From Melioribacter roseus P3M-2 (GTDB lineage Bacteria > Bacteroidota > Ignavibacteria > Ignavibacteriales > Melioribacteraceae): a DNA stretch of 64,000 bases. Under the pieces are notes generated by a model. It was not told the DNA's origin, did no database searches, and saw only the letters and a program-made list of their open reading frames with translations. Position 1 is the stretch's first letter. Each line of letters begins with the position of its first letter. The translations under genes were made by a program, and so were the position numbers. The stretch lies in assembly GCF_000279145.1 (NCBI RefSeq), contig NC_018178.1:1364001-1428000 (forward strand), in the 5' to 3' direction. Below, piece by piece: positions 19,311 to 53,511 of the stretch.

Positions 19311-21034
19311 GAATGAGAATGATTAAAAATATTTTTGTATTATCCGTTTTGATCGGTTTGCTCTTTGCCAGCGGCTGCGGGGAAAATAAAATGAACGACA
19401 ACTGCGATCTGGTTCTCCTGAACGGAGAAATTTATACGGTCAACGATTCGATTCCCTGGGCGGAAGCCCTCGCCGTTAAAGGAGACAGAATCTATAAAGT
19501 CGGGTCGAACGAGGAGATTGAGATGTATATCGGCGATTCGACTGCGATAATAGATCTGAACGGCAGATTCGTTATGCCCGGGTTCATCGACAGTCACGCG
19601 CACTTGATTGGAATCGGCGAAAATTTGATCGATGTCGACCTAAGAGACGCCCAAAACTGGGACGAAGTGATTGCCGCCGTGGCAAAAGCAGCTTCGGAAC
19701 GAAGACCCGGCGAATGGATTGTGGGACGAGGATGGCATCAGGAAAAATTCGATCCCGAGCCCGAGCCGAATGTGGAAGGCTATCCCGTTCATAATGCGCT
19801 GAGTAATGCCGTTCCTTATAATCCGGTTATGCTTGTGCACGCCAGCGGACACGCAGTCTTCGCCAATGCAAAGGCAATGGAAATTGCGGGCGCGGATACT
19901 ATTACGTCAAACCCGCCGGGCGGCGTTATTGTGCGCGATTCTACGGGCAAGCCGATAGGAGTATTCGAAGAAAACGCTGAAAATATAATCAGAAGCGCAT
20001 ACGAAAGATATCTTAACGATAGAAGCCTGGATGAGTTGAACGCAGAGGTAATTAAGAAAATTAAATTCGCTTCCGACCTCTGCTTGAAAAACGGCGTAAC
20101 TACTTTGCACGATGCCGGAGAAGATCTCGAGACAATAGAGCTTATAAAAAAATCGGTCGACTCGAATTATGTTAAAATCCGTCTCTATGTAATGATAAAC
20201 GATGCTTTGGATAAATTGAAAGGTAAATTAAAAGATTATAAACTCGTCGGCTACGGGGAGAACCGGTTGACTGTGCGGGCAATAAAACAGTATATCGACG
20301 GAGCGCTCGGTTCGCGAGGAGCCTGGCTGCTTGAACCGTACTCGGATTTGCCGGACAGCTACGGCTCGAATGTTACTCCTATTAAAACGCTCGACGACTA
20401 CTGCAGACTGGCGGCGGAAAACGGCTTCCAAATGTGTATTCATACAATTGGCGACAGGGGCAACCGCGAGGCGCTCAACTTGTATGAAAAGTATTCAAGG
20501 CAATATGAAAATTTCGACCAAATGAGATGGCGTATTGAACATGCTCAGCATGTCACGCCGTTCGACATTAAGAGATTTGCGCGCCTGAATGTAATTGCCG
20601 CTATGCAAGGAATTCACTGCACTTCCGATGCGCCGTTTGTAATCGAAAGACTCGGGAACGAAAGAGCGGCTTCCGGAGCTTATGTATGGCGCAGCATGCT
20701 CGACCGCGGGGTTGTAATTTGCAACGGCACCGACGCTCCGGTTGAATCTGTAAATCCGATAGCTTCGTTTTACGCGTCGGTTACGAGAAAAAACAAAGAC
20801 GGCGTCGGATTCTATACCAAACAAAAAATGACGCGCGAAGAAGCCATTAAAACCTATACGATTAACGGAGCCTATGCCGCTTTCGAAGAAAATTTGAAAG
20901 GCTCGCTCGTAGAAGGAAAACTTGCCGATTTAGTCGTATTGTCGAATAATTTGATGAAGTGCTCCGAGGACGATATTCTTAAGACCGAAGTCGTTTATAC
21001 GATTGTCGGCGGTAAAATTGTATATAAAAAATAA
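19307..21034 (+). CDS. amidohydrolase-family lipoprotein (YtcJ-like)
   Basis: The protein begins at 19307 (ATG overlapping the previous stop) or at an in-frame ATG at 19319, giving about 575 residues. A lipoprotein signal ends at the lipobox FASGC. The amidohydrolase 3 core follows, with metal-binding DSHAHL, the YtcJ-type segment PGEWIVGRGWHQEKF, later HTIGDRGNREALN and IEHAQHV, and a C-terminal DLVVLSNN strand. These enzymes hydrolyse amide or ester bonds, usually with zinc. The substrate is unknown. The lipoprotein signal places it in the envelope. It is co-transcribed with an M28 peptidase. Confidence 0.87.
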   Translation: MRMRMIKNIFVLSVLIGLLFASGCGENKMNDNCDLVLLNGEIYTVNDSIPWAEALAVKGDRIYKVGSNEEIEMYIGDSTAIIDLNGRFVMPGFIDSHAHLIGIGENLIDVDLRDAQNWDEVIAAVAKAASERRPGEWIVGRGWHQEKFDPEPEPNVEGYPVHNALSNAVPYNPVMLVHASGHAVFANAKAMEIAGADTITSNPPGGVIVRDSTGKPIGVFEENAENIIRSAYERYLNDRSLDELNAEVIKKIKFASDLCLKNGVTTLHDAGEDLETIELIKKSVDSNYVKIRLYVMINDALDKLKGKLKDYKLVGYGENRLTVRAIKQYIDGALGSRGAWLLEPYSDLPDSYGSNVTPIKTLDDYCRLAAENGFQMCIHTIGDRGNREALNLYEKYSRQYENFDQMRWRIEHAQHVTPFDIKRFARLNVIAAMQGIHCTSDAPFVIERLGNERAASGAYVWRSMLDRGVVICNGTDAPVESVNPIASFYASVTRKNKDGVGFYTKQKMTREEAIKTYTINGAYAAFEENLKGSLVEGKLADLVVLSNNLMKCSEDDILKTEVVYTIVGGKIVYKK

Positions 21035-21049
21035 AGCCGGGAGGCAAAG

Positions 21050-22426
21050 ATGAAAAAGATTTACCGTTTGATGATTTTGCCGGCAATTGTAACGCTGCTT
21101 ACGGTACAGACAGCAACGGCTCAAAATGCTATTGTAAGGGATATGTCGATAACTGAAATGATAAACAAAATATCGGCGGACAGTCTGAGAGCTTATGTCG
21201 TACGATTGACGGAATTTAAAACGCGTCATTCTCTCAGCAGCCGCTCCAGTGAAAAGGAAGGAATCGGCGCCGCTGCAAGGTGGGTAAAAAATAAATTTGA
21301 ACAGTTTTCAATGAAATCAGACGGTCGCATGACAGCCGAAATCGATTATTTTGAAGTTCTACCCGACGGCAGAAGAATAGATCGTAAAATAAATCTGATG
21401 AATGTTGTGGCTACGTTAAAAGGAGTTGACGCCAACGATAAACGGTTGATAATTGTGGGAGCTCATCTCGATTCGCGCGTAGCCGACATAATGGACAGCG
21501 TCTCGTACGCTCCGGGCGCAAACGACGATTTGTCGGGAGTTGCCGCCGTGCTGGAATTGGCGAGGGTTATGTCTTCTTCAAAATTTCCCGCCACCGTAAT
21601 GTTCGCAGCTTTTACGGGCGAAGAACAAGGATTATACGGCTCGAGTCATCTGGCGAACAAAATTAAATCGCTCGAAAAGGAAGACAAATATCGTTTGATT
21701 GCAATGCTCAATAACGATATGATCGGAAATACGGTTTCGAGTCAAACTAAATTGAAAGACAATATAAACGTAAGAGTTTTCAGCGAAAGCGTTCCTGCCG
21801 TAGAATCGGAAGAGGAAAAGAGAAATCGTATATTATCCGGCTCGGACTACGACGGGGTATCAAGACAACTGGCAAGATATATTAAAGAAATTGGCGAGAG
21901 ATATGTCGACCAGATAAACGTAAAATTAATATTCAGACGCGACCGCTTTTTGAGAGGCGGCGACCATACTCCTTTTAATCGCATGGGCTTTGCCGCCGTT
22001 CGATTTTGTGAAATGAACGAAAATTATTTTCATCAACATGAATACGTTCGAAATGAAAACGGAATTCAGTACGGCGATCTGCCCGAATTCATCGATTTTG
22101 AATACGCGCGCAAAATAACCGCAGTTAATTGCGCTGTTATAGCAAATTTGGCGTCGGCTCCGCCTCAGCCGGAAAACGTCAAGGTCGACGTTAAGCAATT
22201 ATCGAACACGACAAAACTTACGTGGGACGAACCCGAGGGAATTGAACCCGCAGGTTACTATGTCCTTGTGCGGGAAACTTACATGCCGCTCTGGGAAAAG
22301 AAAATTTACACGGAGTCGAACAGTATCGAACTGCCGTATTCCAAAGATAACTATTTGTTTGCGGTTCAGTCCGTAGACAAGGATGGGCACGAGAGTCTGC
22401 CGGTTTTCCCCGTGCCCGATTTTTAG
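21050..22426 (+). CDS. secreted M28-family zinc peptidase with C-terminal fibronectin III-like domain
   Basis: The 458-residue protein has a signal peptide (about residues 1-25) and an M28 catalytic domain with the expected two-zinc ligands: H in GAHLDSR, D in PGANDDLSG, E in TGEEQGLYGS, D in NNDMIGN and H in GGDHTPFNRMGF. A fibronectin III-like domain (about 370-458) closes the protein. The family removes N-terminal residues from peptides, so it likely scavenges peptides outside the cytoplasm. GGGAGG lies 8 bases before the ATG. It is the last gene of the run that starts at truA and ends 3 bases from the convergent ktrA stop. Confidence 0.9.
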   Translation: MKKIYRLMILPAIVTLLTVQTATAQNAIVRDMSITEMINKISADSLRAYVVRLTEFKTRHSLSSRSSEKEGIGAAARWVKNKFEQFSMKSDGRMTAEIDYFEVLPDGRRIDRKINLMNVVATLKGVDANDKRLIIVGAHLDSRVADIMDSVSYAPGANDDLSGVAAVLELARVMSSSKFPATVMFAAFTGEEQGLYGSSHLANKIKSLEKEDKYRLIAMLNNDMIGNTVSSQTKLKDNINVRVFSESVPAVESEEEKRNRILSGSDYDGVSRQLARYIKEIGERYVDQINVKLIFRRDRFLRGGDHTPFNRMGFAAVRFCEMNENYFHQHEYVRNENGIQYGDLPEFIDFEYARKITAVNCAVIANLASAPPQPENVKVDVKQLSNTTKLTWDEPEGIEPAGYYVLVRETYMPLWEKKIYTESNSIELPYSKDNYLFAVQSVDKDGHESLPVFPVPDF

Positions 22427-22429
22427 TTG

Positions 22430-23119
22430 TCAATCGATAACTTTTTTGATGTCTTTTTCTTTGCCGAAGAGAACAAGGATGTCGTTTTCTTCGACGATTG
22501 TTGTGGAAGTGGGAACTCCGTAAATTCTTTGTTTTGTTAATTCTTCGCCCGTCGCTTCGTCGACCACTTTATATTCTCTTTTGATTGTAATCAAATTCAG
22601 ATTGTAGCGGATACGCAAGTCGATTTCCTGAAGCGATTTTCCTATAAATGCTTTCGGGGCGCGTATCTGGAAAATGCTGTACTCTTCTCCGATAGAAACA
22701 AAGTCGAGAATATCGTCGCTCATTAAAGTATTTGCTACTTTATTGGCAATTTCGAAATCCGGCGAGATTACCTGATCGACGCCGAGCTTGGTCAAAATCT
22801 TCTCGTGAATTTTCGATGTCGCTCTTGCAATTACTTTTTTGACTTTCATCTGCAGAAGTAAAACCGATGTAAGGATTGTATCTTCGAAATTCGTTCCCAT
22901 CGAAATGATGACGGCGTCCACTTTATCGACGCCGAGCGATCTTAGGGCTTTTTCGTCGGTAGAATCCATTCGTACGGCATAAGTTACTTTATCTTTGATG
23001 TCTTCGATTATTTCCATATCGCGGTCGATGGCAATCACTTCGGCGCCTTTTTCCGCCAGCGAAAGGGCAACGCTCAATCCGAAATCGCCAAGACCGATAA
23101 CTGCAAATTTCTTATTCAT
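22430..23119 (-). CDS. ktrA: KtrA/TrkA-type potassium channel regulatory subunit
   Basis: The 229-residue protein has one RCK unit: a Rossmann fold with GLGDFGLSVALSLAEKG binding NAD or ATP (residues 7-140), then a TrkA-C domain (about 145-229). A single-RCK protein of this length is typical of KtrA, whose octameric ring gates the KtrB membrane subunit. It is the last gene of the minus-strand ion operon, 15 bases after ktrB. Confidence 0.93.
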   Translation of the reverse strand: MNKKFAVIGLGDFGLSVALSLAEKGAEVIAIDRDMEIIEDIKDKVTYAVRMDSTDEKALRSLGVDKVDAVIISMGTNFEDTILTSVLLLQMKVKKVIARATSKIHEKILTKLGVDQVISPDFEIANKVANTLMSDDILDFVSIGEEYSIFQIRAPKAFIGKSLQEIDLRIRYNLNLITIKREYKVVDEATGEELTKQRIYGVPTSTTIVEENDILVLFGKEKDIKKVID

Positions 23120-23134
23120 GTCGATACCTTTTAA

Positions 23135-23479
23135 TTAGAGTATTGAAATGTTTTCATGAGGCAATTCGTAATAATCTTCCTTCGCGCCGCTCATAAAAGT
23201 ATAAAGAAAAGCGAGGGGACCGACTCTGCCTATAAACATAAGCAGAACAACTATTATCTTTCCGCCCCACGTTAGCTCCTGTGTTAATCCCATAGACAGT
23301 CCAACAGTGCCGAATGCGCTGAATGCTTCAAAAGCAACTTTTGTTAAGTCAGCGCGCTCGGTTATGGTCAAAAGAAAAATACCGAAAGTAATAAAAAAAA
23401 TCGAGAGACCGGCTTTGATCAGCGCTTTTATTATTATTTCGTTTGGAATCGCTCTGTTGTATATGTAGACTTCTTTTTG
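23135..23479 (-). CDS. C-terminal part of KtrB, in the -1 frame relative to the main reading frame
   Basis: Reading on from 23479 gives QKEVYIYNRAIPNEIIIKAL and then about 95 more residues, including FEAFSAFGTVGLSMGL and LMFIGRVGPLAFLYTF, the closing segments of TrkH/KtrB. No start codon with a ribosome site is evident, so it is not an independent gene. It is the displaced end of the preceding frame. The join point is the heptamer A_AAA_AAC at 23479-23485. Either a programmed -1 shift, a real single-base deletion or a sequence error explains it. The loss of this part would remove the last pore repeat. Confidence 0.8.
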   Translation of the reverse strand, partial: QKEVYIYNRAIPNEIIIKALIKAGLSIFFITFGIFLLTITERADLTKVAFEAFSAFGTVGLSMGLTQELTWGGKIIVVLLMFIGRVGPLAFLYTFMSGAKEDYYELPHENISIL

Positions 23480-24894
23480 TTTTTTAGTATGGCAATCGAA
23501 CCGTAGAACAAAAGAGCAAACGTTGTGGTCTTAACGCCGCCGCCCGTACCGCCGGGAGAAGCTCCTATAAACATCAGTAGAAAAAACAACACGGCGGTGG
23601 GCGTGGTAATCAGTCCGAAATCGATTGTGTTGAATCCGGCTGTGCGTGCCGTTACCGACTGAAAATATGATGCGTTTAACTTTTCGAATAAATTCAAATT
23701 CTTCAAAGTGTTGTGCTGCTCCAGAAAATAAAACGAAGCCGCGCCGAAAACTATCAATAAAATTGTGCTGACGACTACGATGCGCGTTTGAAGAGGCAGC
23801 TTGATGGATAGTTTTCCCATCTTGCTGGTAATATTTTTGAATTTTAGAAAGGATATAATAGTGGGAAATCCCAATCCGCCCAGTATAATCAATATTGATA
23901 TGGTTGTGGTAAAAACATGATTGTAGCGTACGGCGGGGTCCATCAAGTTCATTGTAAAGAGTGAAAACCCGGCGTTGCAAAATGCGGAAACGGAATGAAA
24001 AATCGAAATGAATGCTGCGTTCTCTATGCTGTCGAAAGAGTTTCTTGAACTGTAAAATAAAATTGCCGCGCCGACCGCTTCGATTATGAAAGTGATGGCA
24101 AGCAGATAAGTTAATACTTTTGTTATAGCGCCGATATTTTCTTCTTCGAGTAAATCGTGGAGTAATATCCTTTCTTTAATTCCAAGTCCTCCCGATAAGA
24201 AGATTGCAAAAAACGTTGTGAACGTCATCAAACCGAGTCCGCCGATCTGGAATAACGCCATAATCGTCATTTTTCCGAAAGTGGTAAAATAAGTAGCCGT
24301 GTCGACGGTAATTAATCCCGTAACGCATACCGCGCTGGTCGAAGTAAAAAGCGCATCGACAAATGAAATTTTCCCTTCAACTGTGGCTGCGGGTAGCATT
24401 AACGCGAAAGTGCCGACTATTATTGTAAATAGAAAGCTGAATATGAAAAGTCGCGACGGGTGAATTTGCGACTGAAGCAATTTAATGTTGTAACGGAGCG
24501 TTCCGGAAATTATCCCGACGACAATAAATATTTGAGCGAAGACTATATATAAATAGGTAATGTCTTTGAGTTTTAAAGCCGCTCCTATTCTCTCTACCAG
24601 ACTTAAATTGAAAAAAGAAAGCAAACCTTCTATAAAAATGAAGGAGATAATAATCATTTCGAACTTGTGCGATTTTATGTGGGCTACCTTGTCTTCGGCA
24701 ATGTATAATTGGAGGATATGGTAGAGAATGAATACTATAATAACGCCGATAGTAATAAAATGAAGCGTTCCGGCATCGCTGCTCTTTATCCGGAAACCAT
24801 ATTCCACAATAATCGAAGCAATGCCGAGTAAACTCGAAATGATTACGATTATTTTGGAGAACCTGGCTATATTTTCACGAAGTTCTTTTTTCAA
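23434..24894 (-). CDS. ktrB: KtrB/TrkH potassium uptake membrane subunit (frame interrupted near its 3' end)
   Basis: The 486-residue product covers most of a KtrB-type protein. After an N-terminal extension of four or five helices come pore repeats with filter-like sequences SAVCVTGLITVDTATYF, SAFCNAGFSLFT and TARTAGFNTIDFG. The motif MFIGASPGGTGGGVKTT follows. The frame then stops at 23434, while the homologous sequence continues in the -1 frame. A single extra A, or -1 slippage at A_AAA_AAC (23479-23485), would give an intact protein of about 586 residues. Potassium uptake would follow membrane potential or sodium. Its start overlaps the MscS-like gene stop by 4 bases. Confidence 0.88.
   Translation of the reverse strand: MKKELRENIARFSKIIVIISSLLGIASIIVEYGFRIKSSDAGTLHFITIGVIIVFILYHILQLYIAEDKVAHIKSHKFEMIIISFIFIEGLLSFFNLSLVERIGAALKLKDITYLYIVFAQIFIVVGIISGTLRYNIKLLQSQIHPSRLFIFSFLFTIIVGTFALMLPAATVEGKISFVDALFTSTSAVCVTGLITVDTATYFTTFGKMTIMALFQIGGLGLMTFTTFFAIFLSGGLGIKERILLHDLLEEENIGAITKVLTYLLAITFIIEAVGAAILFYSSRNSFDSIENAAFISIFHSVSAFCNAGFSLFTMNLMDPAVRYNHVFTTTISILIILGGLGFPTIISFLKFKNITSKMGKLSIKLPLQTRIVVVSTILLIVFGAASFYFLEQHNTLKNLNLFEKLNASYFQSVTARTAGFNTIDFGLITTPTAVLFFLLMFIGASPGGTGGGVKTTTFALLFYGSIAILKNKKKSTYTTERFQTK
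23479..23485 (-). promoter_or_regulatory. candidate -1 frameshift heptamer within ktrB
   Basis: On the minus strand the bases are A AAA AAC in the zero frame (codons CTA AAA AAC). This has the X XXY YYZ form of a -1 slippery site. Slippage here joins the long frame precisely to the frame that encodes the conserved KtrB C-terminus. A short A-run (AAAAAG) follows at once. Stimulatory structure was not established. Confidence 0.45.
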
Positions 24895-25895
24895 TTAACG
24901 ATTTTAAATTTGTTTGCCACAATTTGATTAAAATGATTTACGGTTTCTTCGTAAAATTGCCTGTCAAAAATATAAAAATTTACTTCATATGTATAGGTGT
25001 TTTTTAGAGCGTCGAATCTTTTAAGAAACACTTCCGTTTTCTTGCGCGTATATAAATAAGGATTGGAGAGCGAAGCTTCCCTCAAAATGTTCATAACAGA
25101 GTCGTTCTCAATCGACGTAGGAAGCTCTATTTCGAGCGTAATCAGTTGCTCGCGATTGCCGATATTTATATTCTCCACCGGATTACTCAAAAAAACCGAA
25201 TTGGGCAGCGAGACGTTCGAACCGTTGTCCGTTACAATTATTGTGTGTCTCCAATTAATGTCCGTAACTTTTCCGGTATATTCGCCGACTTGAATTATAT
25301 CCCCTTTTTCGAAGGGCGGATTGTAAGTCAAAAGAAAACCCCCGATCAGATTCTTTATTACCGGCACCGAAGCGACAGCCAATGTGACGACGATAATAAC
25401 TAAAAATGCCAGCAGTATTTCCTTCGAAATTCCGAAAATCAGATTAATGAGTATATATAATACCAGCACAACCGTCATTGCCTTCAGCGTAGGAACGAAG
25501 CGCGTCGAGTAAAACGGGAATCGCCGGGCAAAAGCCGATTTGTTGCTTCTGTTAAGCAATCGGAAAATTGTAAATGTAATAAATATCAGAAGCAGAGCTT
25601 CGAGTATAGTTATCAAATCGACTGATTTGAAAATATCAACAACGCGCTTTGATTGTAGGAGTTGCGTGTGATTCGTCTCTTGAGCCTTTACCTCTCCGAC
25701 TGTATCTTTTACGGCATAAACGGAATCTTTCGGCTCTCCGATTTGATGAACGGGCGCGGATTTCAGCCCTGTGTCCTGAGTATAGACCGCCGGATTTAGC
25801 GCGCGCATTGTGTCCGGCGTGTATGAGCTGTCCTGCGAAAAAGCATTGCCTGCGATTAGCAGCGCCAATAACGTTATGTAATATTTTGTCTTCAC
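24891..25895 (-). CDS. MscS-family channel with cleavable signal peptide, in the ion operon
   Basis: The 334-residue protein starts with a signal peptide (about residues 1-20, ending near AFSQ). A periplasmic stretch of about 65 residues follows, then membrane helices at about 91-112, 135-150 and 156-180. The MscS core comes next (VPVIKNLIGGFLLTYNPPFEKGD, VGEYTGKVTDINWRHT, SLPNSVFL). It may sense tension or act as a small-conductance ion release channel. It is embedded between the antiporter-ATPase fusion and ktrB. It overlaps the latter by 4 bases and abuts the former, so it is co-translated with potassium transporters. This supports a volume or ion homeostasis role. Confidence 0.88.
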   Translation of the reverse strand: MKTKYYITLLALLIAGNAFSQDSSYTPDTMRALNPAVYTQDTGLKSAPVHQIGEPKDSVYAVKDTVGEVKAQETNHTQLLQSKRVVDIFKSVDLITILEALLLIFITFTIFRLLNRSNKSAFARRFPFYSTRFVPTLKAMTVVLVLYILINLIFGISKEILLAFLVIIVVTLAVASVPVIKNLIGGFLLTYNPPFEKGDIIQVGEYTGKVTDINWRHTIIVTDNGSNVSLPNSVFLSNPVENINIGNREQLITLEIELPTSIENDSVMNILREASLSNPYLYTRKKTEVFLKRFDALKNTYTYEVNFYIFDRQFYEETVNHFNQIVANKFKIVN

Positions 25896-28800
25896 TATAT
25901 GATGTTTCTCTTCTTTAATTCTCTTTCGATTAATTTGAAAAAGAAGCGGTTGATGAAAAAGTGCGCCGAGCTAATGCTCCATTCGTGTTTTTCGATTAAG
26001 TTTTTCGTGTGCAAGTAATCGAGTATTTCTTTCGACTTGCTTACCGGCAGATTAAACAGGGTGGCGTGCTCGTCGTATGTCAAAGTTCCGTGCAAAATTA
26101 TACTGAACAGGGAGAGCAGATAAATATCTTCGAGTTTTCCGAGAAGCGCCGACTCTATTTTCCTGGGCACTTTAATGAATACTTTGTTGTCTTTGATTCC
26201 TTCGATGGAAAGCAGCCAGAAAAACATGGCGGCGATAATATTGCCCTCCGCAAATTTTTCGAGTTTGTCGAAGTAGAGCGAAGAGAGCTCTTTTTGCTCG
26301 TCTTCGAGCGATTTCGGTTTTACGAATTTCGACTTGAATTTGTATAACTCCGAGGGTTTGAATACAAGGTTATAACCGGTTGCGTTATGCCTGGTTATTA
26401 TGATTGTACGCAGGTCTTTTTTATGAAGGTCGTTTGCAATTATTTCTCTTTCGAATACGTGTCTGTATTCGAAATTGTCCCTTATAAATTCCCAGCTGTA
26501 TTTATCCGAAGTGCAAATCCACAATGTGTTTTCCGAAGTCGAATTTATGAGATAACGCAATGCGTTCAGGGCGTCGTAACCGGAAAGCTTGCGGAGGTAT
26601 AGTTCGTTTAGATTCTCCAGAACAATAACTCTCTTGTTGCTCTTGTCGTTTAAGAGAAATACGAGTTCGTTTAGCGAATAAGTGTGATTATATCCCAATT
26701 CCCTGCATAATAATCCCAGCAATTCGCGCTCTGCGGTGACTGTATTTGTAAATTCATAACGGACGATGCTATATGGCTTTAAATAATTGTTGATAATAAA
26801 ATTCAACAAACTTGATTTTCCGCTGCCTGTTTCGCCTGCAATAAGGAGCGAAGATTTTTCATTTCTTTTATGTCGTTCTATAATATGTTTTATTGTCTTT
26901 TCAACCTGGTCGAGCCCGACAAACAGATTGTAAGTTTCGATCGGAGTGCCGTCGAACAGTTTTTTATAGATAAAGGGAAGTTTCTCGATTTTCGATTTAT
27001 CGAACAGGGATTCCGAATCGGCGTCGCCTACTTCGATCTTGATAATATTGTATTTAACCAATAAATCGTTGATGACGTACTTGAAATACAGGTCGTAATT
27101 ACGTTTTAAGATTACTTTGTATTTTCTGAAAAAGTAGTTTAATTCGTCGCGTATCTGATTGTATGCTTCTATCAGTTTACCCTTTTGCTCGGTTTTAACA
27201 AGGTAGGCTTTGATGTCGCCGTACGATTTTTTCATTATTAAATTGTTAATCGACTCGAGGCTTGCGGAGACTCTTTCCGTAAGGCGTTTGTTGATATCCG
27301 TTTCAATGCGGTCGATTAACTTGTTGACCTCGTCGATGCGGAAGGACATTTTTTCGTAAAATGAATTGGCGAGATTAATTGCCAGCTGTCTGTCCGGTTC
27401 GGGCTTCTCCAATTCCTGAATTGCGGTGTCGAAGTGGAAATTAATGATAAGCAGATAATTTTTTACCTCTTCCGTTATGAGAGAAAACTGGTTTACCATC
27501 AACTCGTTAATTTCGCCGATATCGACTGAAAGTTTATTGTGCAGAATAGTATTGGCTATTGAGCGAATCGGAACCGCCTTTAGGGATTGAAGTTTGGGAA
27601 TCCTCTCTTCTAAAACAAGATCTTCTTCTTCGAGGAGTTCGATCGTTTCTGGCAGAGCCGCGGCAATACTTTTGAATCTGCCTATAAAATGGTCGAACAG
27701 GAAATCGATTTTCTTTCCTTCGTTGACTTCCCTTAATATTTTAAGCTGCCGTTCTATGACATTTATAAAGTGGGAATATTTTTCCTCGTGAAACAGCTGT
27801 TCGAGCTCCTCGTTGTTTAACGAATCGATGTCGGTTAATTTCTGCCTGAAAAATTTTAATTCTTTCTGGAGCAGCGCGTTTGTCTCGCGTATGTCCTTGT
27901 TGATTTCTTCCGATACGCTAATAAGCGATTCTGCGAGCGTTACGTCGATATCGACTTTCATTTTGTCGATATACGCTTCTTTCTGGAAAAGCCCGATAAT
28001 TCCTGCGTAATAGATTGTCCAATAGCGTATCGATTGAAGAGCCAGCTCTTTTGCCTGCTCGCTCTTTTCGAATACTTTCGAAAAACGGTACTGCCGTTCG
28101 TTGAATTTGTGCGTGCCCGCTATATGAAGCGCATCAATCAATTTGTTGAAAGGATTGGCGACTGCATAGAAAAGACGCCTTCCTATCTCTTCTACGGTGG
28201 CGTTTATTTCATTTGTATAAACGGTTATGGAAGAGGTCATCTGTTGATGAATTTCGTCGAGTTTTTCGACCAGAAGCATAGGAAGCGCAACGTTGTCCTT
28301 TTCGTTCAACGCCGTTTCGAGAAGTTGGTCGAGCTCTTCGTTTGTCTGTTTGTAGAAAGTCCTCAGAATTTTCAACGTGGTAAGTCTTTCAATTCCCACA
28401 AGATTTACCGATTCGAGAATTTCATGGGAAGATTCGCCTACAAGATAATATTTTGTCAGGTTGCGATACTTAACTCTCCTTTTGAGCTTGTATTCTTTAT
28501 TAAAGAACCTGTTGATATAGAGTTTGGAGCGCAGTAAAAACTTTCTCAGTTTGAGTATGGTTCCGTCTTCCGGCGACGGAGTGTATTTTTCTTCTTCGAG
28601 ATCGATGAGATATTCGTATTTCAAACCGTCTGTCAGATCGATGAAAGCATAAAAGAGGTCTTTTATTAACGGTTCGAGGTTAAGAATTCTTTTTTCGGTT
28701 TTCTTTCTTTCCTCGCAAAGGGAGATGAGCCACTCGGAAAGATTCTTTTTAGCCCGCAATATTTCCATTCGTATTTTCGAATGAGTTATTGCCGGATCGC

Positions 28801-30382
28801 TGAGAAGCTTTTTGAGCGACTGATATTCGTCGGAATATTTTTCCGTCAAACTGACGAGAAGTTCGAGAGATTCTTCTCCGCGCACCTGAATAAACTTTTT
28901 ATCGAAATCCGTCAGAATGTTGTTTGCTTTGATTAATATATTGTAGAGCGATTTATTGAGTTCGTCATGTCTGAGGTCGGGCTCTCTGAATTTTGCTTTA
29001 ACTTTAGCGGGTTTTATAACCTTTTCGATTTCTTCTTTTGGGAGTTCCGCCGTTTGAGCCTCGTCGGCTTGAGAATACGATTTTGCTTTTGCAATTCCGA
29101 TTTTAAATAATACGGGACCGATAAAAATATTCAACGCCACGACAGAAGTAATCAGATTTTTCAGTTCGTTTCCAAGTCCCGGCAATTTTTGACTTATTAT
29201 AATTGCCAGCCCGAGCATCAGTCCGCCGATAGAAATAAATCCCATCCAGCTGAATTTGGTTATTTCAACCGGCTCGCGGGTCGTTTTGGCTGCCAATGTA
29301 ATCGAGAGATAGAAAGCGAGCGCTCTGACCGCCACGATTATTATACCGATTACAATCGCTTCGGAAACCGAAATAAGATTGAGAGAGGCTCCGGCTATAG
29401 TGAAAAATGTAATAAATATCGGCAGTGAAATTTTTTCGAGTGGTTTGTGTATCTGCTCGCCGAAATCGCTGAAATTTTGAATTATAAATCCTGCGGTTAC
29501 AAATGTAACAAGCATTTCAAGATGAAGCATGGTTGCAATTTCGCTGCCGAAGACCACGAATGCAACTAAAAATAGCAGCAATTCCTTGTTAATATATTTC
29601 ATGTAGAGCAAACCCGCGCCGCCGAGAATTCCCCCGAAAAGTATCGAGAAAAGAAGCTCTTTCCCGAGCGCAATAAACGGGGACTCGCTTCCTGTTGAAA
29701 TCGACAGAATGGACGCCGAAATCGTCAGCACGACTGCAAGCAAAAGTATTACTAATATATCTTTCAGTATGGCGGTGCTCAATATCAAATCGACAAACCT
29801 GCCTTTTGCATTCGATTCGTTGGCTACTACAAGCGTAAGTTCAATCGACGTGCCGAGCGCTATTACGGAAAGTAACAGTCCCGAAGCCAATTTTGGAGCC
29901 CAACTTTCGCCTGCCAGGAACGGAATGAACGGCGACAACAGATAAACCGTTCCGGTTATCAATATAAATATCGTAATGGTTTTGAAAAGGAGAATAAGCA
30001 GCGAGGATTTCAAAAAAGATTTTATCGCATTGACTTTCAATTCCAACCCTGCGGTAAGAGCGATAAGCGCAAGCGTGACGTTGTTGACCAGACTGATGTC
30101 TTGGATTACCTGATTGTTAAAGACCTGAAGAAGTTTGGAGCCGAATATAAAGTAAGAATACGGACCGAAAATTATGCCGATTAAAAGATATCCGATTACG
30201 CGCGGCAGTTTAATCAAAGCAAAGATTTCGCCGAGCGCAAACGAAGCTATAATCAGAAATCCTAGAACGGCGAGCGTTTTGGGATTTATAATACCCGTCG
30301 ATTCTACCTGAATAGTTTCGACAAACAGAAATATCGAGAATAAAATCGATATAACAATAATTCTTCTTAGAACAGAAATCAT
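25895..30382 (-). CDS. CPA2-type cation/proton antiporter fused to long helical region and C-terminal AAA+/P-loop ATPase
   Basis: The 1495-residue protein has three parts. Residues 35-432 form a CPA2 (KefC/NapA-like) exchanger with about 12 helices, including LPRVIGYLLIGIIFGP and an Asp at residue 208 in STAILKDIL. Residues about 440-1150 are charged and largely helical with coiled-coil character and no recognised domain. Residues about 1155-1495 form a P-loop ATPase: Walker A GETGSGKSS at 1183-1191, a Walker B-like strand RVIVLEN near 1251-1257 with Glu where Asp is usual, a sensor-1-like ICTSD near 1290, and a winged-helix-like end (about 1430-1490). CPA2 proteins usually end in RCK/TrkA domains. 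Here an ATPase takes that position. Its start overlaps a second antiporter gene by 4 bases. Confidence 0.85.
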   Translation of the reverse strand: MISVLRRIIVISILFSIFLFVETIQVESTGIINPKTLAVLGFLIIASFALGEIFALIKLPRVIGYLLIGIIFGPYSYFIFGSKLLQVFNNQVIQDISLVNNVTLALIALTAGLELKVNAIKSFLKSSLLILLFKTITIFILITGTVYLLSPFIPFLAGESWAPKLASGLLLSVIALGTSIELTLVVANESNAKGRFVDLILSTAILKDILVILLLAVVLTISASILSISTGSESPFIALGKELLFSILFGGILGGAGLLYMKYINKELLLFLVAFVVFGSEIATMLHLEMLVTFVTAGFIIQNFSDFGEQIHKPLEKISLPIFITFFTIAGASLNLISVSEAIVIGIIIVAVRALAFYLSITLAAKTTREPVEITKFSWMGFISIGGLMLGLAIIISQKLPGLGNELKNLITSVVALNIFIGPVLFKIGIAKAKSYSQADEAQTAELPKEEIEKVIKPAKVKAKFREPDLRHDELNKSLYNILIKANNILTDFDKKFIQVRGEESLELLVSLTEKYSDEYQSLKKLLSDPAITHSKIRMEILRAKKNLSEWLISLCEERKKTEKRILNLEPLIKDLFYAFIDLTDGLKYEYLIDLEEEKYTPSPEDGTILKLRKFLLRSKLYINRFFNKEYKLKRRVKYRNLTKYYLVGESSHEILESVNLVGIERLTTLKILRTFYKQTNEELDQLLETALNEKDNVALPMLLVEKLDEIHQQMTSSITVYTNEINATVEEIGRRLFYAVANPFNKLIDALHIAGTHKFNERQYRFSKVFEKSEQAKELALQSIRYWTIYYAGIIGLFQKEAYIDKMKVDIDVTLAESLISVSEEINKDIRETNALLQKELKFFRQKLTDIDSLNNEELEQLFHEEKYSHFINVIERQLKILREVNEGKKIDFLFDHFIGRFKSIAAALPETIELLEEEDLVLEERIPKLQSLKAVPIRSIANTILHNKLSVDIGEINELMVNQFSLITEEVKNYLLIINFHFDTAIQELEKPEPDRQLAINLANSFYEKMSFRIDEVNKLIDRIETDINKRLTERVSASLESINNLIMKKSYGDIKAYLVKTEQKGKLIEAYNQIRDELNYFFRKYKVILKRNYDLYFKYVINDLLVKYNIIKIEVGDADSESLFDKSKIEKLPFIYKKLFDGTPIETYNLFVGLDQVEKTIKHIIERHKRNEKSSLLIAGETGSGKSSLLNFIINNYLKPYSIVRYEFTNTVTAERELLGLLCRELGYNHTYSLNELVFLLNDKSNKRVIVLENLNELYLRKLSGYDALNALRYLINSTSENTLWICTSDKYSWEFIRDNFEYRHVFEREIIANDLHKKDLRTIIITRHNATGYNLVFKPSELYKFKSKFVKPKSLEDEQKELSSLYFDKLEKFAEGNIIAAMFFWLLSIEGIKDNKVFIKVPRKIESALLGKLEDIYLLSLFSIILHGTLTYDEHATLFNLPVSKSKEILDYLHTKNLIEKHEWSISSAHFFINRFFFKLIERELKKRNII

Positions 30383-31623
30383 TTTGCCGCTCCCCTGATT
30401 TCGCCGGCGTCAATCAACAATCGCTTGGACAATCTGTAACTGATCAATCCGAAGAAAATCATGGATGTTAATATACAGCTTACAACAAGATTTGTGAACT
30501 CGTTCTGATATACGTTTATGTAATCGACTATCATTGCGCATACGATTATATCCTGAGGCAACAAGCCGAGTCCGATGTTAGGTATCAATTTATCCTTTTC
30601 GAACGACGAAGCGTAAGCCAGATAGCCCGAAAATCGTTTCGATACAAAGCGAATTAATATGAACGCCGCAGCGGCAACAATAAAGAATATCGGCGGCAAC
30701 GGAATCCAGTTGAACCCGGCCATAATTACAACAAGTATTCCGACCGGATCGCTTATTTTTGTGAGCGGCTTTTCTATTTTACCCGCTATTTTGGAAAAAT
30801 TTGCGAGTATAAAACCGAGAATGAAATTCATAAAAAGTGGAGAGATGTTGATGAAATAACCGATTCCGCTCGTAAATACTATTGTGCCGATAATTGCCAC
30901 AAAAAATTTTTTTTCGTCTTCCTCTCTGCCTAAAAATAAATTGAGTAAAATTCCGATTAACAAAGCAAGCAGTATGCTCGTTACTATCCACTCTATGGGC
31001 GATTTGATAAACGTATTCGTCGAGCCGATGTGAATAATTCCAAAGAGAAGTCCGAAGAGAAAAATGTTTATGTCCAGATTGATTTTTGTAGATACGTCGA
31101 GCGCGGATGTGATTTTACCCGTGATCTGATATCGATTCATAATCGATTTGATCAATGAATTCGAAGAAACCGAACCCATAATGCCGAGCGCCGCCGAAGC
31201 CGCCAGAATATTCTCTATTTTGGAGCCCGGAAAAAGATAAAAATAGAAAACGAAAAAGGATATCCCGCCAATTACCAATACTGAAATAATAATATCGAAA
31301 GTAGCTACGCGAATGTGTTCCGAGTCGGCGTTTTGGAAATCGCTTACTTTGAATCTGAGTCCGTATACCAAGCCGATTATACCGGTGGCTGCCGCAATGC
31401 CGGGCGCCATCTGCCGCAGCATGTTGTCGTCTACCAGATTGGGTATGTTTAACCCGAAATTGACGTTCAACCAGCCGGAAAACGAAGGACCGAGCAGTAT
31501 TCCGAGCAATATATATTCCAAACCCGCAGGCAGGTAAACTTTCGTTAATAGTTTTTGCCTGAATAGGTTTGCGCCTAAAAATCCAACAACAAGAACAATT
31601 AAGAAAATAAAAAGAGGCGACAT
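30379..31623 (-). CDS. CPA2-like cation/proton antiporter, first gene of the ion operon
   Basis: The 414-residue protein is almost wholly hydrophobic, with about 12 helices. Features such as LPAGLEYILLGILLGPSFSG and a charged residue within the predicted core helices (KINLDINIFLFG) fit the CPA2 exchanger fold. It has no cytoplasmic regulatory domain. Its stop overlaps the start of the antiporter-ATPase fusion by 4 bases, so the two are co-translated and might pair as unlike halves of one dimer. Transported ion unknown, with K+ or Na+ against H+ expected from the neighbours. Confidence 0.8.
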   Translation of the reverse strand: MSPLFIFLIVLVVGFLGANLFRQKLLTKVYLPAGLEYILLGILLGPSFSGWLNVNFGLNIPNLVDDNMLRQMAPGIAAATGIIGLVYGLRFKVSDFQNADSEHIRVATFDIIISVLVIGGISFFVFYFYLFPGSKIENILAASAALGIMGSVSSNSLIKSIMNRYQITGKITSALDVSTKINLDINIFLFGLLFGIIHIGSTNTFIKSPIEWIVTSILLALLIGILLNLFLGREEDEKKFFVAIIGTIVFTSGIGYFINISPLFMNFILGFILANFSKIAGKIEKPLTKISDPVGILVVIMAGFNWIPLPPIFFIVAAAAFILIRFVSKRFSGYLAYASSFEKDKLIPNIGLGLLPQDIIVCAMIVDYINVYQNEFTNLVVSCILTSMIFFGLISYRLSKRLLIDAGEIRGAAK

Positions 31624-31726
31624 AGCCTTATCGTATTATTCTGAAAAATCATCCGTTAATTTAACGAAAAAAGTTGTTTTTTCTGAATAAAACATTTTAT
31701 CCCATACCCTAGACAGGACGCAATTT

Positions 31727-31738
31727 AAAAGCGCTTTT
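31727..31738. promoter_or_regulatory. perfect palindrome AAAAGCGCTTTT between the ion operon and sufE
   Basis: A 12-base perfect palindrome lies about 104 bases before the antiporter start and 78 bases before the sufE promoter element. A second A/T palindrome, GAAAAAAGTTGTTTTTTC, lies near 31664-31682. Either could be an operator. No regulator gene is adjacent, so this is only a candidate. Confidence 0.3.
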
Positions 31739-31815
31739 TACATTTTTTTTAGTCTGTTGTAAAATTGCCGGAACAAGACCTGCTCTTTTTAACGAAATCC
31801 GTAAACTTAATTTTT

Positions 31816-31823
31816 TATATTTG
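31816..31823 (+). promoter_or_regulatory. -7 promoter element for sufE
   Basis: TATATTTG fits TAnnTTTG. Its last base is the G of a GTG that could otherwise serve as the sufE start. Transcription would begin a few bases further on, so that GTG should not be in the mRNA. This supports the ATG at 31844. Confidence 0.5.
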
Positions 31824-31843
31824 TGTCAAAAAAAACAATTGTT

Positions 31844-32272
31844 ATGACGATAGCCGAAAAACAGAAAAAGTTAGTCGAGGAGTTCGAACAATATACCGAC
31901 TGGGAAGAACGCTACAAACACTTAATTGAACTGGGGCGGCAGATGCCCGAAATGAGCGAAGAACTGAAAATCGACAAATATAAACTCGACGGATGCCAGT
32001 CGCAGGTTTGGATTAAAGCCGAATTGAAAGACGGTAAAATTTATTTCGTAGCCGACAGCGACGCGGCAATAGTTAAAGGCTTGATTGCGCTTCTTCTGAA
32101 AGTTTATTCGGGGCACACGCCCGATGAAATATTGTCCAATCCTCCCGAATTTTTAAAACAAATAGGTATCGACAAACACCTTTCGCCAACTCGCAAAAAC
32201 GGTTTGGCTGCAATGATGAAGCAAATTCAGATGTACGCGGTCGCTTTCAAAACCCTTGCTGGAAAGAAATGA
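31844..32272 (+). CDS. sufE: SufE-family cysteine desulfurase sulfur acceptor
   Basis: The 142-residue protein (counted from ATG 31844) has the SufE pattern EQYTDWEERYKHLIELGRQ and the sulfur-accepting Cys in DGCQSQVWI. It takes persulfide sulfur from SufS-type desulfurases and boosts their activity in Fe-S assembly. A GTG at 31823 would add seven residues, but it overlaps the promoter element. No other suf gene is adjacent. It is convergent with the CDF exporter gene, whose stop follows directly. Confidence 0.92.
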   Translation: MTIAEKQKKLVEEFEQYTDWEERYKHLIELGRQMPEMSEELKIDKYKLDGCQSQVWIKAELKDGKIYFVADSDAAIVKGLIALLLKVYSGHTPDEILSNPPEFLKQIGIDKHLSPTRKNGLAAMMKQIQMYAVAFKTLAGKK

Positions 32273-33181
32273 CTATCTGTGTTGTTCGATCAGATCGGAT
32301 TCCGGGCACTGATTGCACTCGAATTGCAGCGTAATATGGTGAATGTCGAATCTGTCGTGCAGCCGATCGATTATCTTTTTTCGAAGCCTGTCGCTTTCGC
32401 TTATTTTCATATCCTGAACGTTAACATGCGCTTCGAGGTGTATGTCGTTTTCGCCCACCATCCACATGTGTATGTGGTGGATGTTTTCCACTTCCGGGAA
32501 TTTTTCCACTTCCAGTTGAATTTCTTCGATTGAAATATTGGTCGGAGCTCCTTCCATCAATACATGAATCGCTTCGAGAAGTATCGAGTAGCTTTCTCTA
32601 ATAATATAAACGCCGATGAGTATCGTCAAAAGCGGATCGATCCAGTGAATTTGCCAGAGTATTATTGCAATACCTCCGCCCAGCACCGCCACCGACGAAA
32701 TTGTATCGCCCAGTAAATGCAGATACGAAGACCGGATGTTCATGCTCGATTTGGAATCTTTTCTGAGAAGCAATACGGCCAGCAAATTTGCCAGCAATCC
32801 CACAAGCGCAACTATGCTCATTATTCCCGGTTCGATGACGACCGGCTCTGAGAATCTCTTTACGGCTTCGTAAAAAAGATAGAAAGATATCACAATCAAC
32901 ACTGCCGAGTTAATAACTGCGGCAAGTATCTCGGCGCGTTTAAGTCCGAACGTATGACGGGGCGAGTTTTGGCGATGTTTCAGTTTTAATGCAATGTAAC
33001 TGATTACAATCGAAATACTGTCGGAAAAATTGTGAAGCGCGTCGGATATCAGCGCCAAACTTCCCGATATCAATCCCCCTATTACTTCCGCCGCGGTAAT
33101 GACGAGATTCAGCAGTATTACGAAAATCAGTCTTCCTTTGGTAGCCGTAAGTACGTCGCTATGTGAATGATTGTGTCCCAA
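32273..33181 (-). CDS. CDF-family cation efflux protein (CzcD/ZitB-like)
   Basis: The 302-residue protein has six membrane helices, a short His-rich N-terminus (MGHNHSHSD) and the paired metal-site motifs SDALHNFSD and HLLGDTISS. A cytoplasmic domain (about 205-302) with HIHMWMVGENDIHLEAHV follows. The HxxxD pairs indicate Zn2+ transport, with Cd2+ or Co2+ possible, exchanged for protons. It stands alone, convergent with sufE and divergent from dgt. Confidence 0.92.
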   Translation of the reverse strand: MGHNHSHSDVLTATKGRLIFVILLNLVITAAEVIGGLISGSLALISDALHNFSDSISIVISYIALKLKHRQNSPRHTFGLKRAEILAAVINSAVLIVISFYLFYEAVKRFSEPVVIEPGIMSIVALVGLLANLLAVLLLRKDSKSSMNIRSSYLHLLGDTISSVAVLGGGIAIILWQIHWIDPLLTILIGVYIIRESYSILLEAIHVLMEGAPTNISIEEIQLEVEKFPEVENIHHIHMWMVGENDIHLEAHVNVQDMKISESDRLRKKIIDRLHDRFDIHHITLQFECNQCPESDLIEQHR

Positions 33182-33227
33182 TTGTAATTATTTATTATTT
33201 TAATGTACAAAAATCAACATAGACGAG

Positions 33228-34493
33228 ATGAAAAACAAATTTTACAATAATTTCGATATCAAACGTCTGAAAGAGAGCGAGCGTTCAAACGACTATCGAA
33301 CGCCGTTTCAAATAGACAGAGACAGAATAATCCATTCCTCGGAATTCAGAAGGTTGCAGGGCAAAACTCAGGTTTTTTTGCCGGGAGAATACGATTTCTA
33401 TCGCACGCGCTTGACGCATTCGATTGAGGTGGCTCAGATCGGCAGGTCTATTTGTAATTACTTGTGCAAATCGCAAAAAGAGTTTTTCAATGATGAATTT
33501 CATATCGACTCCGACCTGGTCGAAGCAATTTGCCTGGCTCACGATCTCGGGCATCCGCCGTTCGGACACGCAGGCGAGAGAATATTGAATAAATTGATGC
33601 TTGACTACGGCGGTTTCGAAGGGAACGCTCAAACTTTGAGATTGGTAACCGAAATCTTTTACCGCGACGGAAATCGTTACCGCGGTATGAATCCCACGCG
33701 CGCTTTCCTCGACGGCGTATTGAAATACAAAGCCCTGTTCAGCCAATTCGAAAGACCGGAGAATCATTTCCTTTACGACGAACAGGCAATCTATATCGAT
33801 TTTATCTGGGAAAACGGATATGAATCTATTAAGAATGATACGGAGCTATTGAACAACTTCCGCAGTATCGAATGTCAGATAATGGACTGGGCAGACGACA
33901 CGGCTTATGCTGTAAACGATCTGGTCGACAGCATCTCGGGCGGATTCATCAATATTGCCAAACTTTCCAAGTGGAAACAAATTAATTGCAAAACGGACGA
34001 AGAAGAAAAAATCGTCGAGGAAATAATTGATTGGATAAAAGAGGATAATTACAAGCAAAAATTCGGAGCCCAAATCGGCGAGTTTATTGCGGCGTGCTCG
34101 GTCAAAAAAAGAACCACTTTTATGGACGATTATACAAACAGATACGGGTTCGAACTCGTCGTTCCCGAAGAGATAAAAAAGCGGGTTGAAATTTACAAAA
34201 AGATTTCGGTCGATCTGGTATTCCGTTCGCCCACGCTCCATCAAATCGAATTCAAAGGTAATTCGATGATCGAAAAAGTGTTCAAACTGCTCGAAGAAAA
34301 TTATATCGTAGAGCCGGGCTCGAGCAAACTTCTGCCCGATTTCAACGACAGAATAATTCGAACCGAATCCGAAAAGAACCGCAGGGCTCGTTTGGTTTGC
34401 GATTATATTGCCGGCGCTACCGATTCTTACGCGATGAGGATTTACAGAAGGCTCTTCGACCCGGACTACAGCTCGCTTACAGACCTTGTGTAA
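33228..34493 (+). CDS. dgt: deoxyguanosinetriphosphate triphosphohydrolase-like protein
   Basis: The 421-residue HD-domain enzyme carries RTRLTHSIEVAQIGRS with a metal His, then AICLAHDLGHPPFGHAGE with the HD pair, and MDWADDTAYAVND with the last Asp. These are the dGTPase/SAMHD1-type metal ligands. It splits dNTPs to nucleoside and triphosphate and controls dNTP pools. The opening FKRLKES-type segment and YRTPFQIDRDRIIHS are typical. Its last 28 bases overlap the 3' end of convergent ispH. Confidence 0.9.
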   Translation: MKNKFYNNFDIKRLKESERSNDYRTPFQIDRDRIIHSSEFRRLQGKTQVFLPGEYDFYRTRLTHSIEVAQIGRSICNYLCKSQKEFFNDEFHIDSDLVEAICLAHDLGHPPFGHAGERILNKLMLDYGGFEGNAQTLRLVTEIFYRDGNRYRGMNPTRAFLDGVLKYKALFSQFERPENHFLYDEQAIYIDFIWENGYESIKNDTELLNNFRSIECQIMDWADDTAYAVNDLVDSISGGFINIAKLSKWKQINCKTDEEEKIVEEIIDWIKEDNYKQKFGAQIGEFIAACSVKKRTTFMDDYTNRYGFELVVPEEIKKRVEIYKKISVDLVFRSPTLHQIEFKGNSMIEKVFKLLEENYIVEPGSSKLLPDFNDRIIRTESEKNRRARLVCDYIAGATDSYAMRIYRRLFDPDYSSLTDLV

Positions 34494-53079: not shown

Positions 53080-53511
53080 TTAAAGGCTCAGAATTTTTTT
53101 TACCGTTTTTTCCTTCAGTTGCGCCAGGCTTTCCTTTTTAAACATTTTGTATGCTTCGTCTCTTAGACGCCCCCACTTATTGTGAACAGGGCAGGGATTC
53201 TCGTTGGAGCAGCCCGGAAAACCGAGCACGCAGCTTTTGAAAATTTTATCGCCGTCGATGGCTTCAATGATGTCGATGAGATAAATGTTGTTCGGATTTT
53301 TTGCCAGATAAAAACCGCCGTTTTTGCCTTTTTTTGAGCCGACAATCCCTTTATGGGTAAGCGTTTGCAGTACCTTCGAGACGAACTCTTTCGGCACTTT
53401 CAACTCTTTCGATATTTCCTCGGCATTGAATACGACTTTTTCTTTTTTGATTGAAAGAAAGAGAACCGCCTGAATGCCCAATTCGCATGCTTTCGAAAAG
53501 AAAACGGTCAT
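53080..53511 (-). CDS. Rrf2-family transcriptional regulator, probable Fe-S cluster type
   Basis: The 143-residue protein has a winged helix (about residues 1-75; FSKACELGIQAVLFL, KEFVSKVLQTLTHKGIVGSKKGKNGGF). Three cysteines (CVLGFPGC and CSNENPC) lie in the position used to bind [2Fe-2S] or [4Fe-4S] clusters in IscR, NsrR and RsrR. It may sense iron-sulfur status, NO or redox. It starts within the stop of the MscS gene (4-base overlap), so the two are co-expressed. Its targets are not known. Confidence 0.88.
   Translation of the reverse strand: MTVFFSKACELGIQAVLFLSIKKEKVVFNAEEISKELKVPKEFVSKVLQTLTHKGIVGSKKGKNGGFYLAKNPNNIYLIDIIEAIDGDKIFKSCVLGFPGCSNENPCPVHNKWGRLRDEAYKMFKKESLAQLKEKTVKKILSL

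Follow-up and report, generated by a model that had tools for sequence, protein, structure and literature searches.

A gene fusion of a CPA2 exchanger and an AAA+ ATPase in Melioribacter roseus, and the pairing of its ATPase family with MscS-type channel genes

What is an ATPase doing at the end of an ion exchanger? This question is raised by a gene of Melioribacter roseus P3M-2 in a stretch of 64,000 nucleotides (NC_018178.1, positions 1,364,001 to 1,428,000; hereafter the window), which encodes in one frame a CPA2-type exchanger, a long helical stalk, and a C-terminal AAA+ ATPase. An earlier reading of the DNA letters alone (the sequence-only reading) had regarded the ATPase as the regulatory part of the exchanger and proposed an ATP-driven switch on ion exchange. 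The fusion, the AAA+ assignment, and the Walker A motif stood up in the present study; however, the near-constant partner of the ATPase was found to be an MscS-type channel gene, and 68 of 80 loci in the phylum Bacteroidota have at most one hydrophobic segment. Since MscS is the near-constant neighbor, fusions to other transporters occur, and an exchanger is often absent, an ATP-driven gate on ion exchange is too narrow a description. We consider it rather probable that the fusion protein is one architecture of a widespread and apparently undescribed AAA+ regulator that works with an MscS channel.

The ATPase family and its MscS neighbors

The fusion frame is uninterrupted, as had been stated, with its strand now corrected to minus; the plus-strand translation of the same interval contains many stops. 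Two Pfam families were matched above their cut-offs, Na_H_Exchanger (PF00999, residues 45-427, within the previously assigned 35-432; E = 3.7e-21, 75.8 bits, cut-off 26.2) and AAA_22 (PF13401, residues 1175-1281, E = 1.2e-7), and no further family, which bears out the fusion of exchanger and ATPase. On the minus strand, the fusion gene follows a gene for a CPA2-like membrane protein (P2) and is followed by the genes for MscS, TrkH, and TrkA, the first four open reading frames overlapping by 1-4 nucleotides (nt). Regarding the possibility that two genes were merged by an assembly or sequencing error, the adjoining TrkH frame is broken in M. roseus, so that errors may exist nearby; its genome was assembled as one contig (3,300,414 bp, 99.94% complete). 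A search for the same domain order elsewhere, which the sequence-only reading had suggested, yielded full-length orthologues in eight of 58 genomes including M. roseus, to which one (G114) was added from 395 genomes of the phylum; the eight outside M. roseus are 31-89% identical to the fusion protein, and the domain order recurs in Myxococcota. Because these eight loci (L043-L050) carry full-length orthologues with the same neighbors, the artefact was rejected, and we give it virtually no chance.

A profile of the last 370 residues was searched in 393 genomes of the phylum and found 73 places in 70 genomes at E ≤8.1e-35, the next matches (E ≥2.8e-17) all being partial. Together with seven loci from the orthologue search, these constitute the Bacteroidota set of 80 loci. 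Hydropathy counts gave 0-1 hydrophobic segments in the 68 loci mentioned above and 10 or more in the other 12; most of the former measure about 930-1160 residues from stop to stop, several being cut by contig ends. Most Bacteroidota relatives of the ATPase thus appear to lack an exchanger and to be soluble. When all six frames of the 80 loci were searched with an MscS-neighbor profile, a same-strand MscS gene was detected in 77, of which 76 have it no more than 300 nt away and L082 has it at a distance of 340 nt. All three loci without one (L145, L149, and L151) are cut by contig ends; L151 and L152 lie on two contig ends of one genome (G260) and are perhaps one gene, and each was counted, L151 as a miss. 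MscS is downstream in most loci and upstream in 14, including L076, in which it lies just upstream in a frame overlapped by a longer open reading frame; therefore, the adjacency has outlasted rearrangement. The minimal kept unit is the AAA+ protein plus MscS.

Outside the phylum, we examined 42 loci from Pseudomonadota and Myxococcota. Of these, 13 come from the phylum of an Alcanivorax metagenome-assembled genome (MAG), in which 13 of 299 genomes had a match; the other 29 are a sample, which includes L158, of 73 matching rows (43 of 144 genomes; two genes appear in two rows each) from the class of a Myxococcales MAG. A same-strand MscS gene was downstream in 41 of the 42 loci, in 39 of them within 160 nt; the gap was 251 nt in L221 and 516 nt in L225, and the MscS gene of L207 is split over two frames. 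The pair is also present in two annotated records, Novosphingobium pentaromativorans US6-1 and Caulobacter sp. NIBR2454. Overall, 121 of 127 loci have a same-strand MscS gene beside the ATPase, three are cut by contig ends, and three have a Na+/H+ exchanger instead. This total comprises the 80 and 42 loci, L156, the two annotated records, L230, and L231, with the window itself left out; L153-L155, whose contigs equal those of L124, L125, and L130 in length, were treated as these loci and not counted again, and the scan that gave them found at least six loci. As a yardstick, a random M. roseus gene would adjoin an MscS-domain gene in approximately 0.4% of cases, given six such genes among 2838 open reading frames (a number from a published abstract). 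The loci are related and are not independent trials, and the flips in gene order, the occurrence in three phyla, and the trees are a better argument than this proportion.

The ATPase tree covered 117 domains (L054, L070, L071, L151, and L152 were dropped from 122 rows). The 12 fusions to SLC12-type transporters formed one clade with a support of 100 in the Shimodaira-Hasegawa-like approximate likelihood ratio test, and the CPA2 fusions fell into a clade of eight rows (98) and a Myxococcota clade of five rows (99) that also includes the unfused L213, which an exchanger gene adjoins. One or two events are a possible origin of the CPA2-ATPase fusion. In a tree of 118 neighboring MscS proteins, these grouped according to the architecture of the ATPase, with four changes for five groups, which is the minimum, and the SLC12-linked MscS formed one clade (97). 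Although both trees were quick searches with long branches and their details are unsure, they show computationally, at the level of sequence, a joint inheritance of ATPase and MscS. Five genomes (G010, G028, G783, G790, and G857) have two systems of different kinds. Of the six MscS-domain proteins of M. roseus, the partner scored 266 bits on a partner-MscS profile and the five paralogues 31-96, the profile having been trained on partners; on a tree, the paralogues had long branches and required four changes, and the partner MscS may form one clade apart from them.

Folds and motifs of the fusion protein

Residues 436-1175 consist of 32% K/R/D/E, and the predicted structure is almost entirely helical from 436 to approximately 1110, consistent with the charged helical region of about 700 residues described previously. 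The AlphaFold2 model of residues 436-1495, built from 64 sequences, had a mean predicted local distance difference test value (pLDDT) of 87.8 and a predicted template modeling score (pTM) of 0.58. In its C-terminal part, the structure prediction called for by the sequence-only reading confirmed a modeled AAA+ fold nearest to Orc/Cdc6 and TnsC. Orc/Cdc6 chains ranked first in Foldseek (7tji_I, E = 3.2e-8), and 7jgr_G was aligned with a Z-score of 15.4 and a root-mean-square deviation of 3.5 over 248 residues (model 698-976). The alignment with 1w5s_B (Z 14.7, 5.7 over 277) extends to model residue 1059, and certain Orc and TnsC chains align through to 1058-1060. Over the 50 rows listed, which include Orc1/Cdc6, TnsC, and NSF D2, Z ranged between 13.7 and 15.4 over about 205-300 residues; since NSF D2 is close behind (Z 14.2), the assignment to the Orc subfamily is weaker than that to the AAA+ fold. 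Apaf-1, NRC3, ClpB, ClpA, and Cdc48 were also among the Foldseek matches. The last 85 or so residues were modeled as a helix-and-strand unit in the place of the Orc winged helix, in keeping with the winged-helix-like end that had been suggested.

The AAA+ half of the earlier "AAA+/STAND-like" label is supported by AAA_22 and by the fold. For the STAND half, Pfam gave nSTAND3 at 20.3 bits against a cut-off of 27.2, and Apaf-1 is among the fold matches. NCBIfam, PADLOC, and PHROGs gave weak matches alone for the C-terminal part, Pfam otherwise gave weak P-loop matches, and a search of the PDB with the whole protein gave no match at E up to 1. Regarding a known regulatory family associated with CPA2 exchangers at the C terminus, which would have spoken against a new arrangement, none fits, and Pfam detected no TrkA_N/KTN match at E up to 1. 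The Walker A motif and the VIVLEN segment reported earlier are both in place, so that the M. roseus protein has the Walker A lysine and the Walker B acid; further motifs of the core are LPFIYKK (1135-1141) and ITRHNATGY (1329-1337). Across the family, 81 of 117 members retain the Walker A lysine (35 have other residues and one a gap), 107 have an acid in the Walker B column (seven of the ten others belong to the SLC12-type rows and show an acid in the next column), and 115 retain the arginine of the RH motif.

The stalk alone (464-1112) was predicted with a pLDDT of 92.6 and a pTM of 0.81. Its two halves look homologous in a profile comparison (hhalign probability 96.1, E = 3e-9, 13% identity over 215 columns), and it therefore probably arose by internal duplication. 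Foldseek found no PDB match at 0.001 or better (best E 0.32). In VIA-align, designed helical bundles came first (Z 15.0), above bacterial dynamin (9.6) and vinculin (9.5); these matches may reflect just a common arrangement, they barely cover the first unit (model 1-336), and we make no claim of a new fold.

The transport site of CPA2 exchangers has a conserved acidic residue in a DD, ND, or QD motif. In the fusion proteins, the site was placed by motif and not by structure: its second residue is Asp in 10 of 11 aligned proteins (Glu in L049). Its first residue is Lys, which is unusual at this place, in all of the 11 except L222 (Gly). P2 had no match in Pfam. In a search of its own genome, it was 24% identical to the exchanger domain, and its profile matched six of eight fusion orthologues (E 2e-12 to 2e-17). 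None of seven aligned P2-type rows has an acid at the ion-site column, on account of which P2 may be a non-transporting or non-catalytic partner of the exchanger, possibly in a dimer; P2 and its counterpart in L061 have an Asp one residue past this column, so that the loss could be an effect of the alignment. A P2-like gene recurs beside CPA2-ATPase fusions in two phyla.

A proposed regulator and its alternatives

The fusion, gene order, pairing, folds, and joint inheritance are computed features of these loci, from which we infer, with fair but not strong confidence, a nucleotide-dependent regulator that coordinates release through MscS with K+/H+ or cation-chloride transport. Contact, gating, and the ions carried are inferred in this model, as are co-transcription, the direction of control, and ATP dependence. 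The AAA+ protein would sense the nucleotide state, the stalk or membrane part perhaps turgor or ionic strength, and docking on the cytoplasmic side of MscS would alter the readiness of the channel to open. The flux through a fused transporter, whether CPA2 or AA_permease/SLC12-like, would be set by the same switch. Besides the pairing with MscS, the model is supported by the fusions of the module to these transporters and by the exchanger gene that adjoins the ATPase in the three loci where MscS is missing. In M. roseus, a putative five-gene operon would place K+ uptake through TrkAH, exchange of K+ or Na+ for H+ by the fusion protein (possibly with P2 as its non-catalytic partner), and emergency release through MscS under a common control. 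More tentatively, and at somewhat less than an even chance, Orc/STAND-type AAA+ proteins that bind MscS may represent a new class in ion homeostasis, in which the valve and an attached transporter answer to the nucleotide state.

Several observations weigh against the regulator that we propose. Three Myxococcota loci (L213, L230, and L231) have no MscS gene and carry a Na_H_Exchanger-Usp gene directly after the ATPase, with a second such gene next in L230. L230 and L231 were picked on purpose after L213; of six matched Myxococcota ATPases of 694-696 residues, three were examined, all three without MscS, and those of G846, G851, and G860 were left out. Short ATPases of 440-466 residues (L070-L075, L120, and L121), in which most of the stalk is missing, still pair with MscS. 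Trk genes are near 12 of 122 loci and P2 near 12, almost only with CPA2 fusions, and soluble and SLC12-type forms are without them except for L080; therefore, they belong to the CPA2 architecture and not to the whole family. The placement of the stalk relative to the ATPase is uncertain at the pTM given above. Furthermore, with the Walker A lysine missing in 36 of 117 members and the Walker B acid in 10, it is doubtful that ATP hydrolysis occurs family-wide.

The last point also bears on the alternative that the ATPase is an assembly or biogenesis factor, acting on the insertion, assembly, or removal of the channel or transporter as a chaperone would, and not on its activity. NSF D2 was nearly equal to Orc in the comparison of folds, ClpB, ClpA, and Cdc48 were among the matches, and a close pairing with MscS would be equally expected; however, Orc/Cdc6 chains rank first, the loss of the lysine is unlike an energy-driven remodeler, and covalent fusion to a transporter suits a subunit more than a chaperone, and we regard this alternative as unlikely. 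The rank of the Orc chains may in turn be read as that of a membrane-tethered regulator, in which DNA would be bound by the AAA+ domain together with the winged helix, with the exchanger as an anchor or sensor. DNA-binding initiators and TnsC are the top fold matches, but a winged helix is usual in STAND proteins too, and most Bacteroidota relatives look soluble and are nonetheless paired with MscS, which makes this reading very unlikely.

A STAND-like ATPase beside a channel may also be an anti-phage conflict system, with the ATPase as the sensor and MscS as the effector that permeabilizes the membrane. The presence of the STAND-like Apaf-1 and NRC3 in the fold list is consistent with this, as are the relatives detected when 72,556 plasmid records were searched (three records, including a 104-kb plasmid with a DEAD/DEAH helicase gene near the relative), and a weak PADLOC match of the fusion protein to mad8 (E = 6.1e-6, 24 bits). 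That match sits on the P-loop region; apart from mad3 (16.1 bits), PADLOC gave nothing else for the fusion protein and nothing for P2. The same amidase and uridine-kinase-like genes flank 37 of 80 Bacteroidota loci, and fixed flanks of this type are expected from vertical inheritance, which argues against a defense role. The L064 domain had no match in 50,697 phage records, and none was found in viral contigs by a search that reaches close relatives only. Because of the fixed flanks, the negative search of phage records, and the K+ transport neighbors of the CPA2 form, as well as the ties to TrkAH, CPA2, and SLC12-like transporters, defense appears quite unlikely, and a housekeeping role of the ATPase-MscS pair is favored.

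Regarding known systems, KefB and KefC are CPA2 K+/H+ antiporters with a KTN (RCK) domain and a role in K+ efflux. The fusion protein resembles them in joining a CPA2 membrane domain to a nucleotide-binding cytoplasmic part and differs in that this part is an AAA+ domain on a helical stalk. In TrkH-TrkA, the genes of which are in the M. roseus cluster, K+ transport is under a separate nucleotide-binding subunit; TrkA is an RCK protein, whereas the regulator in the fusion is AAA+. MscS is the textbook example of a tension-opened valve and MscK is K+-dependent; the partner channel shares the MscS beta-domain, and we know of no dedicated ATPase partner for either. The AAA+ core, and in several chains the C-terminal end, are shared with Orc1/Cdc6, TnsC, MuB, and Apaf-1/STAND proteins, whereas the present ATPases are on a transporter or stalk or beside a channel gene with no DNA role indicated, a statement made without a systematic check for DNA-related neighbors. 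In the KATP channel (SUR-Kir6), a subunit with an ATPase fold makes the channel answer to the nucleotide state, which is an analogy of function only, as its folds are unrelated to the AAA+/MscS pair.

If the proposed regulator is correct, channels viewed as "purely mechanical" would be centrally controlled in several phyla, and the release and uptake of ions would be jointly controlled through a switch protein. The ATPase lies beside MscS in three phyla and is covalently joined to two unrelated transporter folds, and this pairing suggests an undescribed control of cell salt and turgor as well as a possible role for genes that carry no annotation beyond "AAA family ATPase" or "ATP-binding protein", which is the case in both annotated records. 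The sequence-only reading had been aware of no exchanger with an AAA+ regulatory part; our search of titles and the beginnings of abstracts in the PMC literature, which includes no preprints and few subscription journals, likewise found no description of such a fusion or of an AAA+ partner of MscS, and a published description elsewhere is possible. A word search of the main text of the M. roseus genome paper (PMC3534657) did not find mechanosensitive, potassium, or antiporter, and the portion consulted of a transporter survey that includes Myxococcus xanthus names MscS and CPA2 proteins and mentions no such partner or fusion (PMC3924187).

Transporter fusions and gene neighborhoods

Across Bacteroidota, Myxococcota, and Pseudomonadota, the relatives occur as soluble proteins or as fusions to CPA2, AA_permease/SLC12-like, or other membrane segments. 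AA_permease (PF00324) was far above its cut-off in all five scanned proteins of the second type, the neighbors of which are MscS genes: L058, L060, and L079 (1686-1703 residues, N-terminal match, E = 5.3e-48, 1.2e-49, and 1.3e-48) and, in Myxococcota, L198 and L211 (3e-43 and 8.5e-45). The name SLC12 rests on PF03522, which was above the cut-off in L058 (29.0 vs. 27), just below in L079 (26.5), and not listed for L060, L198, or L211; seven further Myxococcota rows were labeled from length and membrane pattern alone, and the name is provisional outside L058 and L079. Several hydrophobic segments also precede the ATPase in L157, L158, L187-L191, L205-L210, and L212 from Pseudomonadota and Myxococcota, for which Pfam offered no name in the four scanned (L157, L187, L191, and L205). 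L157 and L158 start with a signal-like stretch and then a long hydrophilic region, and such segments are absent ahead of the ATPase in L192 and L197, where no hydrophobic stretch was counted.

Concerning the CPA2 type, PF00999 was matched in Myxococcota L222 (E = 3.1e-18) and L223 (4.9e-27); L224 and L225 were called from the alignment, with no exchanger match in Pfam for L224 and L225 unscanned. In L223 and L224, TrkA and TrkH genes are upstream of the fusion gene; a P2-like gene is upstream of it in L222 and L225, and that of L223 stops directly ahead of TrkA, such that Trk and/or P2-like genes accompany all four in an order that differs from M. roseus. The order in L061, which has a ten-segment membrane part without a Pfam match, is P2-TrkA-TrkH-fusion-MscS. 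Since gene content is constant while order varies, a functional link is favored. All eight orthologue loci (L043-L050) have MscS, TrkH, and TrkA downstream in the order seen in M. roseus, and seven have P2 upstream, L048 reaching a contig end there. The features of the M. roseus locus are listed in Table 1.

Table 1. Coordinates in the window of the fusion gene, its domains and motifs, and the adjoining genes
Feature	Position	Strand	Basis or remark
Fusion gene: CPA2 exchanger, tandem helical stalk, Orc/Cdc6-like AAA+ ATPase with winged-helix-like end	25895..30382	minus	1495 residues
CPA2 exchanger domain, residues 45-427, K-D pair at 207-208	29102..30250	minus	Pfam PF00999
Helical stalk, residues 473-1110: two similar helical units and a long helix	27053..28966	minus	AlphaFold2, hhalign
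AAA+ ATPase core, residues 1133-1411	26150..26986	minus	AAA_22, Orc/Cdc6 fold match
Walker A GETGSGKS, residues 1183-1190	26813..26836	minus	sequence position
Walker B-like VIVLEN, residues 1252-1257, Glu at usual Asp place	26612..26629	minus	sequence position
C-terminal winged-helix-like end, residues 1412-1495	25898..26149	minus	model secondary structure
P2, CPA2-like membrane protein, 414 residues	30379..31623	minus	overlaps fusion gene start by 4 nt
MscS-family channel, 334 residues	24891..25895	minus	PF00924; overlaps fusion gene end by 1 nt
TrkH K+ transporter	23434..24894	minus	PF02386, E = 1e-35; frame broken near 3' end
TrkA regulatory subunit, 229 residues	22430..23119	minus	TrkA_N and TrkA_C (Pfam)

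The neighboring MscS matched the MS_channel_2nd beta-domain (PF00924) with an E-value of 2.9e-17 (63 bits, cut-off 20.2). The ATPase family has a single member in the window, which includes two more MscS-family genes (17517-18440, plus strand; 53508-54575, minus strand) without an ATPase of this family. MscS-type genes are clustered beside one ATPase in certain other loci, two in L059 (9767-12877) and L227 and three in L052 (3779-7917), which suggests more than one channel per regulator. Rfam had no match in positions 21000-33500 of the window, and the promoter scan (26 vs. a mean of 23.0) and terminator scan (14 vs. 12.0) were at background. The TrkH frame ends at 486 residues as compared with 582-594 in orthologues, and the remainder is in another frame past a lysine-rich stretch, which may be a sequencing error or a real break; the sister genome locus L043 holds an intact TrkH.

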